The notes under the pieces: model-generated | The model's database searches: none | What the model was told of the DNA's origin: nothing | What the model saw: only the letters and a program-made list of their open reading frames with translations | Source of the DNA: Calditrichota bacterium | GTDB lineage: Bacteria > CLD3 | Assembly: GCA_008501735.1 (NCBI GenBank) | Contig: QQUF01000053.1 | Location: 62,001-126,000 of the forward strand | Length of the DNA stretch: 64,000 bases | Direction: 5' to 3' | Position numbers and translations under genes: made by a program | Shown here: in pieces, positions 1 to 3,675 of the stretch | How positions within the stretch are numbered: the stretch's first letter is position 1 | Layout of the letters: the number at the start of each line of letters is the position of its first letter

Positions 1-175
1 ATTTACTGTCTCGAAAAGAAATTTCTTCTATCGGGGGAGTTTCGCCATTTTTAATTATTGTTCCCAGTACACGAACTGCCTCCTTGACTTTATCTATTGT
101 CTCTTTTTTAATGAAATGGTTGACATTTCTAAGTCTTGCCGTTTGTTGTGTTAATTCATTTAGTTCTTCAATCAT
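1..175 (-). CDS. Third gene of Zorya-like operon, 5' part only
   Basis: An open frame starts with ATG at 175 and runs off the left edge without a stop, so only the first 58 residues are visible. It begins MIEELNELTQQTARLRNV and continues as a hydrophilic, probably helical segment. Its ATG overlaps the end of the ZorB-like gene by 8 bases (ATGATTGA), which points to translational coupling in the same operon. In known Zorya systems the gene after zorB is zorC (type I) or zorE (type II, HNH nuclease). The visible residues do not decide between these or a third effector. The reading frame and operon position are seen in the sequence; the role as a Zorya effector is inferred from position alone. 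Confidence 0.6.
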   Translation of the reverse strand, partial: MIEELNELTQQTARLRNVNHFIKKETIDKVKEAVRVLGTIIKNGETPPIEEISFRDSK

Positions 176-872
176 TGTTCTTGAGGCTTAATTTTAAAAG
201 TTCATCGATTCTCTTTTCTGCATCAGTTCTAACTCGAAACTCAACTCTTCTCGAAACAGCTTTATTCTCAATTCCATTTTCAAAGACTAATTTGCTTGAA
301 GATAGACCGTTTGCAGTAATTTTTCCACGACACCAATCTTTTAAATCTTTTTCATCAATTTGTAAAAGTGAAAATTCTAAAACTGCTCTCGTTCTATTTT
401 GTGAAAGTTCCATATTATAAAAATAGGCTTTGTCTTCTTCAACTTGAAAACTCCATTCGCTTGAAGTATGACCTTCAATTCTTATTTCTTCAATAGCATC
501 TCTAAATTTTTGTTCACTTAAAACGTTAATGTAACGAGGGAAGAAATCTGTCAGAATTTCCTGAAATTTATTTGACAATTTATAATCTCCTTGCTTAAAT
601 AAAATATCAGGCGTGTGAAACATAAAAGACAAAGTCAAACTATCAATTTCGGCTCCCCATTTGGGTAAATCTTCTTTGAACTCTAAGAAAAGATTGTTGT
701 AAAGTTCTCTTTTTATTTCAACGTATTTTTCAGCAATATTAACTTTTTCCTCTGTCTCTTTCTCTAATCTTAGCAAAGTTGAGGAAAGAAGGAGAACAAA
801 GATTAAAAGTAAAGCCGCCATCAAATCGCCAATCGAAAGAGCAAAAGCATTTTCTTCTTCATACTTTTTCAT
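168..872 (-). CDS. zorB: ZorB-like motor protein, MotB/OmpA type
   Basis: This 234-residue inner-membrane protein has a short cytoplasmic N-terminus and one membrane segment at about residues 17-32. The segment is preceded by the IGDLMAALLLIFVLLL signature, in which Asp16 matches the proton-carrying Asp of MotB/ZorB stators. A periplasmic OmpA-like peptidoglycan-binding domain spans about 105-225, with IEGHTS, the NRTRAVLEF helix and a terminal RRVEFRV strand. Length and layout fit ZorB rather than flagellar MotB, and no flagellar gene is nearby. Its ATG shares one base with the zorA stop (TGATG), so the two are translationally coupled. In Zorya, ZorA5B2 forms a proton-driven membrane motor that senses phage entry and recruits cytoplasmic effectors. 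A TolR/ExbD or MotB homologue is less likely given the partner gene. Confidence 0.85.
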   Translation of the reverse strand: MKKYEEENAFALSIGDLMAALLLIFVLLLSSTLLRLEKETEEKVNIAEKYVEIKRELYNNLFLEFKEDLPKWGAEIDSLTLSFMFHTPDILFKQGDYKLSNKFQEILTDFFPRYINVLSEQKFRDAIEEIRIEGHTSSEWSFQVEEDKAYFYNMELSQNRTRAVLEFSLLQIDEKDLKDWCRGKITANGLSSSKLVFENGIENKAVSRRVEFRVRTDAEKRIDELLKLSLKNND

Positions 873-2776
873 CAGTTTGCTCTTCTTATTTTCTCAAAAA
901 TACCCGTAAATTCTTCTGTTGTTTCACTCAGTTCTTCAACACTTGTTGCAAGAATTTTTGATGCTTTAGACAATTGTTCTGAAAATTCAGACAAATACTC
1001 GTTCAAATTTTCTCTAGTAATATTTTGGTAATCACTCAATCCTGTGTTTAATTGGTTAAAAATCCCTCCGAGTTTTTCTTCTATCGTTGAGAATTGGGTA
1101 ACGTAATTTGCCCCTAAGTTTTTTGCTTCTTCAAGAGATTTTTGAATTTCATTAATTGTTTGTTTATTAATTTTCAAAAACTCTTCTGATTGTTTGTTCA
1201 AAATATTAGTTGCACCTTTAAGGCTTTCGGAAGTTGAATCAAAATTTTCAGAAGTAGTTTTTAAACTTGTAGAAAGAGATTTGAATTCAGATAAACTCCC
1301 ACTTAAACCGTTAATGTTGGAATTCAAAGTTTTAATCAAATTTTGTCCTTCTTGGAAACTTTCCTTAGACTTCTCAATTAACTCTTCGACTTGCAACGTA
1401 ACATCTGATTCACCTTCGATTAATCTTTGAATCGTTTTTTCCAATTTTTCAATTGTCTCTAAAGTTTTGGTTTGAACTTCGTTGCTTGAGTTAATCAAGT
1501 TTTTTTCCTGTAACTCAACTACTTTTTTAAAATCTTCTGCTATGGACTTGAAAATCCCTTGAATCATTTCTGCATTTTCAGAAGCCGTTTCATTGGCTTT
1601 CGTGGTTGAATTCGAGAAATCCTCTTTTAGAGCTCTAATAATTTCTCCAAAATTATTAGCCAAATTATCGAAATGAGCCTGCATTTTTTCAATACTTTTA
1701 GGTAAATCATTTAATGATTTTACAGTTTCTCCCAAAGTCTTAGAAATATTTTCAAGTTCTGAGGTCGTTTCGCCTGTTAATGATTTTTTAAAATTCTCAA
1801 TTAATTCTTGCATTGAGTCTTTTAATTCTTGTATCGCTTCTTGCAGAACTTTTTCGGCAGATTCAGATTTTGTTGCTTTTAAGTCTTCAACTGCTTGAGT
1901 AAGTTTATTCAAAGCAGGAATTACTTGTTCATTAAAAACTTTAGTAAAGTTACTTCCTAAGATTGTTCCAATGCTTTCAATAGTTTCTGTTGAAATTTGA
2001 ATTCCGTCAGCTAAGTCAGTTGAAAAACTTTTTAAAGCCTTTGTTTGCTCTTCTTGGTTATGCCAAAGGTGCTTGAAAAGTTCCTTTGGAAAGACTTCCT
2101 TTTCTTCGTGTTCATAAACAAAAAAATCTTTCATAATCTTTTTTTGCTCTTCCACAAGATTTTCTTTTTCCTCTTCCGCTGAGTATTTAAATTTTGAATC
2201 TAAAAATGAAGAAAAGTCGTTACAATCTTGGTCGATTTTCCGAAACTGAAATTTTTCAAATAAACTAAAAAGGATTGAACAACCCATTCCCCAAACCGAT
2301 GTTAAGAAAGCAGTTCCAATTCCTGTTAATAGTTTCTCAATACTTTCTTTTATTGTCTCAATTGATTCAGTGTCAAATTCAGAAATTCCAAAAGTAAGCC
2401 CTAAAAAAGTTCCAAGAATACCTAAACCAACTAACAAATTTGGCACGTAAAGCCAAGTACGATAGTTTAATTTTGTGGTAATAATTCTTTCAAAACAAAA
2501 GTAAGAATCAGCACTGATTTTAGTTTTGCCATTTTCAAAAGTATGTTTATAAATTTCCCAAATGCTAGATAAATAAGAAATATTGCTTAGCTTTTCCTCA
2601 TCAAAGTTCTCAACTAAATCTTTTAAGTCTTTGTTGATTTTATTTGTGTGTCTTAGCCAAAGAAACAAACCCGAGACTACTACTATCAGAATTAAGAAAC
2701 AAATGATACCAACTGTCAGGTCAAATTCATTGTTTTTGGAAATTCTAAATGTCAGAACTGAAATTATTGTATCCAT
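872..2776 (-). CDS. zorA: ZorA-like proton channel with long coiled-coil tail
   Basis: This 634-residue protein has three visible membrane segments (about 20-41, 108-131 and 151-174). The latter two belong to the MotA/TolQ/ExbB core, with VPNLLVGLGILGTFLGLTFG followed by LLTGIGTAFLTSVWGMG. Residues from about 200 to the end are almost entirely predicted coiled coil (repeated Glu/Lys/Ser/Leu heptads such as ESAEKVLQEAIQELKDSMQELI). A MotA core followed by a very long cytoplasmic tail is the hallmark of ZorA, whose tail forms an intracellular rod required for defence. ExbB, TolQ and MotA lack it. It is the first gene of the operon and starts with ATG at 2776. No typical GGAG ribosome site is seen upstream. 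Confidence 0.85.
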   Translation of the reverse strand: MDTIISVLTFRISKNNEFDLTVGIICFLILIVVVSGLFLWLRHTNKINKDLKDLVENFDEEKLSNISYLSSIWEIYKHTFENGKTKISADSYFCFERIITTKLNYRTWLYVPNLLVGLGILGTFLGLTFGISEFDTESIETIKESIEKLLTGIGTAFLTSVWGMGCSILFSLFEKFQFRKIDQDCNDFSSFLDSKFKYSAEEEKENLVEEQKKIMKDFFVYEHEEKEVFPKELFKHLWHNQEEQTKALKSFSTDLADGIQISTETIESIGTILGSNFTKVFNEQVIPALNKLTQAVEDLKATKSESAEKVLQEAIQELKDSMQELIENFKKSLTGETTSELENISKTLGETVKSLNDLPKSIEKMQAHFDNLANNFGEIIRALKEDFSNSTTKANETASENAEMIQGIFKSIAEDFKKVVELQEKNLINSSNEVQTKTLETIEKLEKTIQRLIEGESDVTLQVEELIEKSKESFQEGQNLIKTLNSNINGLSGSLSEFKSLSTSLKTTSENFDSTSESLKGATNILNKQSEEFLKINKQTINEIQKSLEEAKNLGANYVTQFSTIEEKLGGIFNQLNTGLSDYQNITRENLNEYLSEFSEQLSKASKILATSVEELSETTEEFTGIFEKIRRAN

Positions 2777-3000
2777 ATTTTGCCTCTTAAAGTTTTTCCA
2801 TAATTGCCTTTTCTCTAAAACTTTTTCTTTACGTTGTAATTTCTAACTTTTGGTAAGATAGGGCCAACTTCCAATTTCAAGAGAAAGATTTATAAAGATA
2901 ATTTAAGATTGAATTTAGTCAAAAAGATTAGAATTGAAAATCTGAAAAGAAACAAACTTTTGGAGGTATTATGAAGATGGGTAAGAAATGAATACAAACA
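2777..3000. other. Intergenic region upstream of zorA
   Basis: No gene, RNA or clear repeat is seen here. The zorA promoter should lie in this stretch, but no convincing -35/-10 pair was recognised. The region separates the defence operon from the tRNA cluster and its terminator. Confidence 0.5.
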
Positions 3001-3031
3001 AAAAAGCCTCAGATTATTTCTGAGGCTTTTT
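3001..3031 (-). terminator. Rho-independent terminator after tRNA cluster
   Basis: An 8-bp GC-rich stem (AGCCTCAG/CTGAGGCT) with a 7-base loop is flanked by A and T runs, so it reads as a terminator on either strand. On the minus strand it lies just beyond tRNA-Asp and would end transcription of the tRNA/DUF3098 unit before zorA. Confidence 0.85.
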
Positions 3032-3038
3032 TGTTTAA

Positions 3039-3112
3039 CGGAATGGACGGGAATCGAACCCGCAACTTCCTGCGTGACAGGCAGGTGCTCTAACCAATTG
3101 AACTACCACTCC
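3039..3112 (-). tRNA. tRNA-Asp (GUC)
   Basis: A complete 74-nt cloverleaf. The acceptor stem GGAGUGG/CCAUUCC pairs with one G-U. The D-arm GTTC/GAGC is present, the anticodon stem is CCTGC/GCAGG and the loop CTGTCAC gives anticodon GUC. The T-arm is GCGGG/CCCGT with loop TTCGATT. The discriminator base is G, the identity base for Asp. No CCA is encoded. It lies 10 bp downstream of tRNA-Val on the same strand. Confidence 0.95.
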
Positions 3113-3122
3113 CAAAAATTTA

Positions 3123-3197
3123 TGGGCACTACTGGACTCGAACCAGTGACCTCCTGCTTGTAAGGCAGGAGCTCTAAACCAACTGAGCTAAGTGCCC
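3123..3197 (-). tRNA. tRNA-Val (UAC)
   Basis: A complete 75-nt cloverleaf with acceptor GGGCACT/AGTGCCC, anticodon stem CCTGC/GCAGG, loop CTTACAA (anticodon UAC), T-arm ACTGG/CCAGT with loop TTCGAGT, and discriminator A. CCA is not encoded. Its first ten bases overlap the end of the upstream DUF3098-like gene, whose TAG stop lies at tRNA positions 8-10. The mature tRNA 5' end therefore has to be cut out of that mRNA. Confidence 0.95.
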
Positions 3198-3403
3198 GAA
3201 GTTTCTTCTTTATCCTTTAGCATAATTGCTGCAGGAATTAGAATACAATAGGCGATAACTAATAAAACAGGTCCTAATGTCAGAGAAATTGGGTTATTTG
3301 CAGGTCCTTGATGAAGACTTACAAACCCTAAAAGGAGAACTAAAAGTCCTACTCCAAATAGAATGAAATTCTTTTTGGTTAATTTTAATTTACTCTTTGA
3401 CAT
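3188..3403 (-). CDS. DUF3098-like small membrane protein
   Basis: A 71-residue protein with a basic N-terminus (SKSKLKLTKKNFILFG), two membrane helices (about 13-31 and 41-62) and a charged C-terminus. The pattern 'K.N......GLLVLLLGFVSL......PISLTLGPVLLVIAYCILIPAAIM' resembles DUF3098 (two-helix proteins of Bacteroidota and relatives, often near ftsX; function unknown). The last codons, including the TAG stop, lie inside tRNA-Val, so the message must be cut by RNase P or read through the tRNA. It sits between tRNA-Lys and tRNA-Val and is probably co-transcribed with both. The family assignment is by pattern only. Confidence 0.7.
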   Translation of the reverse strand: MSKSKLKLTKKNFILFGVGLLVLLLGFVSLHQGPANNPISLTLGPVLLVIAYCILIPAAIMLKDKEETSGT

Positions 3404-3485
3404 ATTTGAGCGACAAATTTAATTTTTTATGTACCTATTGTCAACTCATTTCAATTGATGTTATCAAAAACTGAAAATGAATTTA

Positions 3486-3558
3486 TGACTCGGGACGGAT
3501 TCGAACCGTCGACCATCACCTTAAAAGGGTGCTGCTCTACCAGCTGAGCTACCGAATC
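3486..3558 (-). tRNA. tRNA-Lys (UUU)
   Basis: A 73-nt cloverleaf with acceptor GATTCGG/CCGAGTC (one U-G pair), D-arm GCTC/GAGC, anticodon loop CTTTTAA (anticodon UUU), T-arm GACGG/CCGTC with loop TTCGAAT, and discriminator A. The outermost anticodon-stem pair (27-43) reads G-A, and the other four pairs are intact. CCA is not encoded. It precedes the DUF3098-like gene by 82 bp. Confidence 0.93.
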
Positions 3559-3675
3559 TCCAAAAGAGTGCCAAATGTAAAACTCATTACCAAGTTTGTC
3601 AACTAAAAACTTAAAGAAAAATGAATTATTTTGAGGCAATATATTTTCAATCAAATTTGAAGTGATTAAGATGGT

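Follow-up and report, generated by a model that had tools for sequence, protein, structure and literature searches.

A small DUF3098-like membrane-protein gene that ends inside tRNA-Val(UAC): a shared stop codon in a probable, widely conserved ORF-tRNA operon

Introduction

Protein genes and tRNA genes can be combined in mRNA-tRNA operons, in which both are carried on a shared transcript and the tRNA is released by RNase P. In the case of secG, the coding region has its own stop codon upstream of the tRNA gene leuU. In the tRNA punctuation of mitochondria, excision of the tRNA shortens the message, so that its stop codon is lost or cut short, and polyadenylation completes UAA. The secG leuU operon of E. 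coli is named in the title of Mohanty and Kushner 2008, as cited in an excerpt of PMC3985628. It was also reported, in the portion of PMC3985003 that deals with ArfA, that RNase III cuts a hairpin in the mRNA and that this cleavage before the stop codon gives a non-stop mRNA, which is handled by tmRNA.

The locus presented here lies in a stretch of 64,000 nucleotides from a Calditrichota bacterium (the window), where the frame of a small membrane protein runs into tRNA-Val(UAC). By its sequence it belongs with the known mRNA-tRNA operons, and what differs is the stop codon inside the tRNA. As in secG leuU, a protein gene and a tRNA are predicted to share one transcript from which RNase P releases the tRNA; however, the stop codon of the window's gene lies within the mature tRNA. 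As in ArfA, a cut before the stop codon and a non-stop mRNA are predicted, and a tmRNA is present in the window's genome (E 1.5e-70), whereas the cut would be made by RNase P (predicted only) and the RNA that is cut is a tRNA, which that of ArfA is not. Genes of the same protein family (DUF3098, PF11297), with two hydrophobic stretches as in the window, are also located between ftsX and uppP/bacA, but such loci are without a tRNA: FtsX and BacA/UppP genes flanked the DUF3098-like gene in all three tRNA-less loci tested (L145, L149, and L151; G069, G210, and G340). No report of this junction was found among the papers listed in searches of the open-licence literature.

Results

The junction in the window

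All features of the operon lie on the minus strand and are given below in the direction of transcription, with the basis of each in brackets.

3574-3602, minus: promoter-like TTGACA-17-TACATT, 5' of tRNA-Lys (sequence match)
3486-3558, minus: tRNA-Lys(UUU), a neighbouring and probably separate unit (tRNA prediction)
3416-3444, minus: promoter-like TTGACA-17-TAAATT, just 5' of the ORF and between it and tRNA-Lys (10/12 match)
3188-3403, minus: ORF of a DUF3098-like two-helix membrane protein, 71 aa, ATG start (ORF reading, homology, dN/dS)
3188-3197, minus: overlap of the ORF and tRNA-Val, 10 nt (ORF and tRNA coordinates)
3188-3190, minus: stop codon TAG, bases 8-10 of tRNA-Val (sequence read directly)
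3123-3197, minus: tRNA-Val(UAC) (ARAGORN; ViennaRNA fold as a tRNA within the precursor)
3039-3112, minus: tRNA-Asp(GUC) (tRNA prediction)
2995-3037, minus: terminator-like hairpin after tRNA-Asp (sequence match)

A preliminary description of this DNA had placed the stop of the DUF3098-like frame on a TAG at positions 8-10 of tRNA-Val on the same strand, and the coordinates agree with it exactly. The ORF ends with ...ACT TCG GGC ACT TAG, where the first base of tRNA-Val (3197) is the third position of TCG and the final two residues, G and T, are encoded by the acceptor stem of the tRNA. One copy each of tRNA-Val(UAC) and tRNA-Asp was found in the window's genome.

The ORF and its homologues

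Judging from its homologues and substitution pattern, the 71-aa ORF is a real gene. The first homologues came from 60 relatives that were searched. With a profile built from 17 aligned members (A1), relatives were then found in 184 of 506 distinct genomes. Matches to the profile were found in 90 of 386 genomes, in 5/5 genomes of the phylum of G059, and in 31/47, 37/39, and 32/40 genomes of the phyla of G202, G163, and G351, respectively. The dN value was lower than dS in all nine pairs tested (dN 0.05-0.38, dS 0.35-2.0; G000 versus G001, 0.38 and 2.0), and G001 has the identical junction and frame with different upstream codons.

The window protein is called DUF3098-like here since its own match to DUF3098 scored 17.9 bits, under the Pfam gathering cut-off of 25; 13 of the 17 A1 members matched the domain at E <=0.01 (best 4.8e-11). 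By hydropathy the window protein has the two hydrophobic helices of that family (maxima of 2.47 and 2.45 for the 19-residue windows that begin at residues 13 and 43, respectively); its N-terminus is rich in lysine and its C-terminus is charged. No common neighbour gene hinting at the role of the protein stood out in 12 loci whose ORFs were read by eye. Integrase-like genes, recognised by eye from their translations, were seen near the tRNA-Val operon at two loci (L084 and L106).

The transcription unit

The broader conserved unit, as read from sequence, is a promoter, the ORF, and tRNA-Val, sometimes with tRNA-Asp, with little or no gap between ORF and tRNA. Of 64 loci with linked tRNA-Val/tRNA-Asp, 53 were used in the promoter test and 11 without a clear start or upstream sequence were skipped. 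In 37 of these 53 loci, TTGAC occurred in the 105 nt upstream of the start codon, against 3.9 expected from shuffled sequences, while the last 105 nt of the ORF held it in 6/53, not above chance (3.9 expected). The promoter and terminator matches of the window, taken alone, barely exceed shuffles: the region held five promoter-like sites versus 2.6 (sd 1.9) and one terminator-like site versus 0.6. The putative -10 hexamer lies 13-14 nt before the ATG in the window (7-13 nt in several relatives), so the message may be nearly leaderless.

The preliminary description had treated tRNA-Lys, the ORF, tRNA-Val, and tRNA-Asp as apparently one transcript. This holds in part. The ORF, tRNA-Val, and tRNA-Asp would be co-transcribed, considering the promoter-like site 5' of the ORF with none before the tRNA, the lack of any gap before tRNA-Val, and the terminator-like hairpin after tRNA-Asp. 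The inclusion of tRNA-Lys, on the other hand, is not supported, because it has a promoter-like site of its own and another stands before the ORF; moreover, a tRNA-Lys upstream of the gene was seen in just two of 98 loci, those of the window and G001. It is therefore probably a separate unit, but read-through from tRNA-Lys into the ORF may occur, as no terminator was among the predicted sites of the window between them.

The junction in relatives

The junction was surveyed in 190 loci, i.e., one per matching genome, two for G053, and six named loci, with G308 (E 5.5e-5) left out. The frame stopped on the TAG at bases 8-10 of tRNA-Val(UAC) in 49 loci, representing 19 of 84 families when two Fibrobacteres records (L061 and L062), which may duplicate other genomes counted, are taken as families of their own. 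In three loci the frame was one phase off and stopped at the next TAG deeper in the tRNA. The stop was 1-60 nt before tRNA-Val in 79 loci (26 of these gaps were <=9 nt) and >60 nt from it in 19. In the remaining 40 loci no tRNA-Val(UAC) was seen downstream, a class that includes three ends near a contig end and all of the several loci with low family scores (e.g., G101, G342, G362, G212, G340, and G136). Altogether, tRNA-Val was overlapping or <=60 nt away in 131 loci, and tRNA-Asp was <=250 nt away in 20 of the 49 overlap loci.

The overlap is shared with the nearest relative, G001, and occurred in all five genomes of the phylum of G059. It prevailed in f1 (2/2), f175 (13/14), f154 (8/10), and f269 (4/6), was mixed in f247 (4/14) and f276 (2/7), and was absent from f268 (0/4), f264 (0/3), and f225 (0/9). 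In the sister family f2, from the window's own phylum, the gene lay apart from tRNA-Val, with none downstream (7/7). On the family tree, which was built from 73 columns for 154 of 161 loci (seven scoring <40 were left out, and the phylum of G351 is not in it), the overlap/gap label changed 19 times over 109 labelled rows, compared with a shuffled mean of 35.8 (28-44); with so few columns the tree cannot separate gain from loss.

Relatives whose frame ends upstream of the tRNA had been named beforehand as evidence against the shared stop. Such relatives exist, as the 79 loci above, but not in the window's own family, where both loci have the overlap. As 79 of 190 loci stop 1-60 nt earlier and 40 have no tRNA-Val downstream, the gene works without the overlap, which is thus not obligatory, yet it is stable in several lineages. 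The stop codon shared by the membrane-protein gene and tRNA-Val(UAC) is real and lineage-stable, and it is part of a widely conserved ORF-tRNA operon.

Other frames ending in tRNA genes

The window's genome has 34 tRNA sites, and the DUF3098-like frame is its only upstream ORF of at least 60 aa to end inside a tRNA; at the lower threshold of at least 45 aa, a 49-aa GTG frame ending in tRNA-Leu was also found. Many tRNAs have a TAG at bases 8-10, at which any frame entering in the right phase will stop. Together, G408 and G163 (85 tRNA sites) had 20 further frames of at least 60 aa that ended inside a tRNA, and a Pfam search of 10 of them gave one match. This is the PCMT (protein-L-isoaspartate methyltransferase) gene of G163 (L310, 31-723, plus strand), whose TAG stop ends at base 23 of tRNA-Pro(CGG).

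Among ORFs of at least 100 aa from outside the family that ended between -60 and +75 of a tRNA, 8/27 ended inside it and 19 ended 0-60 nt before; several of these eight are evidently alternative frames of the same loci. The corresponding figures for the DUF3098-like family in the same earlier locus set were 47 inside and 61 ending 0-60 nt before. A 289-aa frame at L048 (G029) ends at bases 8-10 of tRNA-Gln and is possibly another real overlap. Since other frames, some possibly real, also end in tRNAs, overlap of a gene and a tRNA is not unique to this family.

Additional copies of tRNA-Val

The ORFs of G471 and G472 each end at bases 8-10 of a tRNA-Val copy that is defective; an intact tRNA-Val lies 145 or 210 nt further downstream. 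Between the two there are two and three tandem partial copies, in which the anticodon arm is replaced by a TCCCGA...TCGGGA hairpin. The ORF of G496 (L356) ends in such a partial copy near the contig end, with a different hairpin, and G446 has a decayed partial copy. Extra copies were present in 9 of the 150 loci scanned, eight of them in the phylum of G351 and the ninth in G446. The loci with partial copies are L346 (G471), L332 (G472), L333 (G481), L328 (G488), L331 (G469), L343 (G474), L344 (G470), L329 (G487), and L356 (G496, seen apart from the scan). These arrangements suggest that a functional tRNA would be freed from the ORF if the tRNA were duplicated and the first copy then decayed. 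At the 14th locus of f175 (L201, G415), the ORF runs to its stop through the initial 10 bases of tRNA-Val and the tRNA breaks off after base 11, which may be due to rearrangement, decay, or an assembly fault.

Discussion

Capture of a stop codon already present in the tRNA by a gene without a spacer is probably the simplest origin of the overlap. Where the gene stops 1-60 nt before the tRNA, the gaps are evenly spread over the three phases (24, 31, and 24), while the overlaps by phase number 49 (UAG at bases 8-10), 3 (the next TAG, at about base 22), and 0 (the third phase, which on a typical tRNA-Val reads much further through the tRNA). UAG at bases 8-10 is near-invariant and therefore offers a ready stop in one phase, with which a gene that loses its own stop keeps its normal length. 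In a spacer-poor operon, loss of the gene's stop would thus be caught in one of three phases, and the captured state would persist, since undoing it would take a new stop upstream, an insertion, or duplication of the tRNA.

As to how the junction functions, we consider it moderately probable that the ORF forms the 5' portion of a precursor of tRNA-Val and tRNA-Asp which doubles as an mRNA with a captured stop, and that translation and maturation of one molecule exclude each other. One promoter 5' of the ORF would drive the ORF and both tRNAs, as the conserved sequence indicates. Ribosomes would translate this leader and terminate, with RF1, on the UAG at bases 8-10. When its A site is on these bases, a ribosome would cover the point of RNase P cleavage, which is ten bases 5' of the end of the stop codon, and would also occupy the 5' strand of the acceptor stem. 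Translation of the last codons and maturation of the tRNA would therefore be mutually exclusive for each molecule. The protein would be made from nascent or uncut RNA. It follows from the coordinates that RNase P cleavage would generate a non-stop RNA whose last codon is incomplete (UC in the window), and that it would compete with translation; late ribosomes on the cut message would need tmRNA. These steps draw on known dimensions and pathways. The tmRNA was over the cut-off in 18 of 20 genomes, with weak matches only in G111 and G248. In the ViennaRNA predictions the fold of tRNA-Val was unchanged with 30 or 60 nt of the ORF added, and no alternative structure between the tRNA and the end of the ORF was seen; the precursor thus looks like a fair substrate of RNase P. 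Completion of the stop by poly(A), as in mitochondrial punctuation, was rejected, for the bases left before the tRNA were TA in 0/49 overlap loci; the frame does not allow it, since TA followed by G would be a stop.

Among the other explanations, it is very improbable that the ORF is untranslated in the window's genome or ends elsewhere and that the overlap comes from a frame open by chance. It is true that spurious frames stop at the TAG of tRNAs, chiefly in the GC-rich G408, but the homology across lineages, the lower dN in every pair compared, and the frame and junction kept by G001 argue against it. Quite possible, though not the reading we prefer, is purely neutral crowding, in which the stop of the ORF was lost and the UAG of the tRNA serves instead, with both outputs unaffected, as coupled transcription and translation would finish the protein before the tRNA folds. 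This is consistent with a UAG that is present at bases 8-10 anyway, with gaps elsewhere that are small and random in phase, and with an overlap that comes and goes within f247 and f269. It does not readily account for f175, where the overlap is stable and the tail is exactly ten residues in 14/14 loci despite its varied sequence.

Another explanation is that the overlap is a selected regulatory device, in which maturation of tRNA-Val is coupled to the DUF3098 protein and full-length protein reports slow RNase P or low tmRNA, as with ArfA of E. coli; we regard this as unlikely. Long retention of the overlap in several lineages points to it, and the cut before the stop in the mRNA of ArfA (excerpt of PMC3985003) provides a precedent. 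The tail of the ORF gave no new upstream stop in 193 substitutions, against 7.1 expected if truncation were neutral (four overlap groups, 30 rows, with one row, G461, dropped), but this test is biased and counts as weak evidence, since the overlap was the criterion by which the groups were selected. Relatives outside the test rows have lost it, with the stop 13 nt upstream in G443 and the tRNA displaced in G446, G463, and G464. Moreover, the tail itself may matter to the protein, and the overlap is absent from most loci. A further step, which seems to us distinctly doubtful, would be a long-lived RNA switch in which each precursor gives either the DUF3098 protein or tRNA-Val, never both at once, with full-length protein reading out the capacity of RNase P or of trans-translation, kept in several lineages on a tRNA that is single-copy in the window's genome.

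If the precursor is both mRNA and pre-tRNA, as in the reading that we prefer, RNase P would make a non-stop RNA each time a single-copy tRNA matures, and the locus would offer a natural setting for studying in what order translation, folding of the tRNA, and RNase P cleavage take place. That the DUF3098-like gene is paired with tRNA-Val(UAC) in many lineages is a strong genomic clue for an uncharacterised family. Annotation rules that bar overlaps of protein genes with tRNAs may trim or drop such junctions.

Directly 3' of the tRNA operon, the window holds a ZorB-like gene (168-872, minus strand) and a ZorA-like gene (872-2776, minus strand), matched by PADLOC to ZorB2 (2e-78) and ZorA1 (5.1e-33) and under the NCBIfam cut-offs. 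This pair could possibly be a Zorya-type defence system at the tRNA locus.
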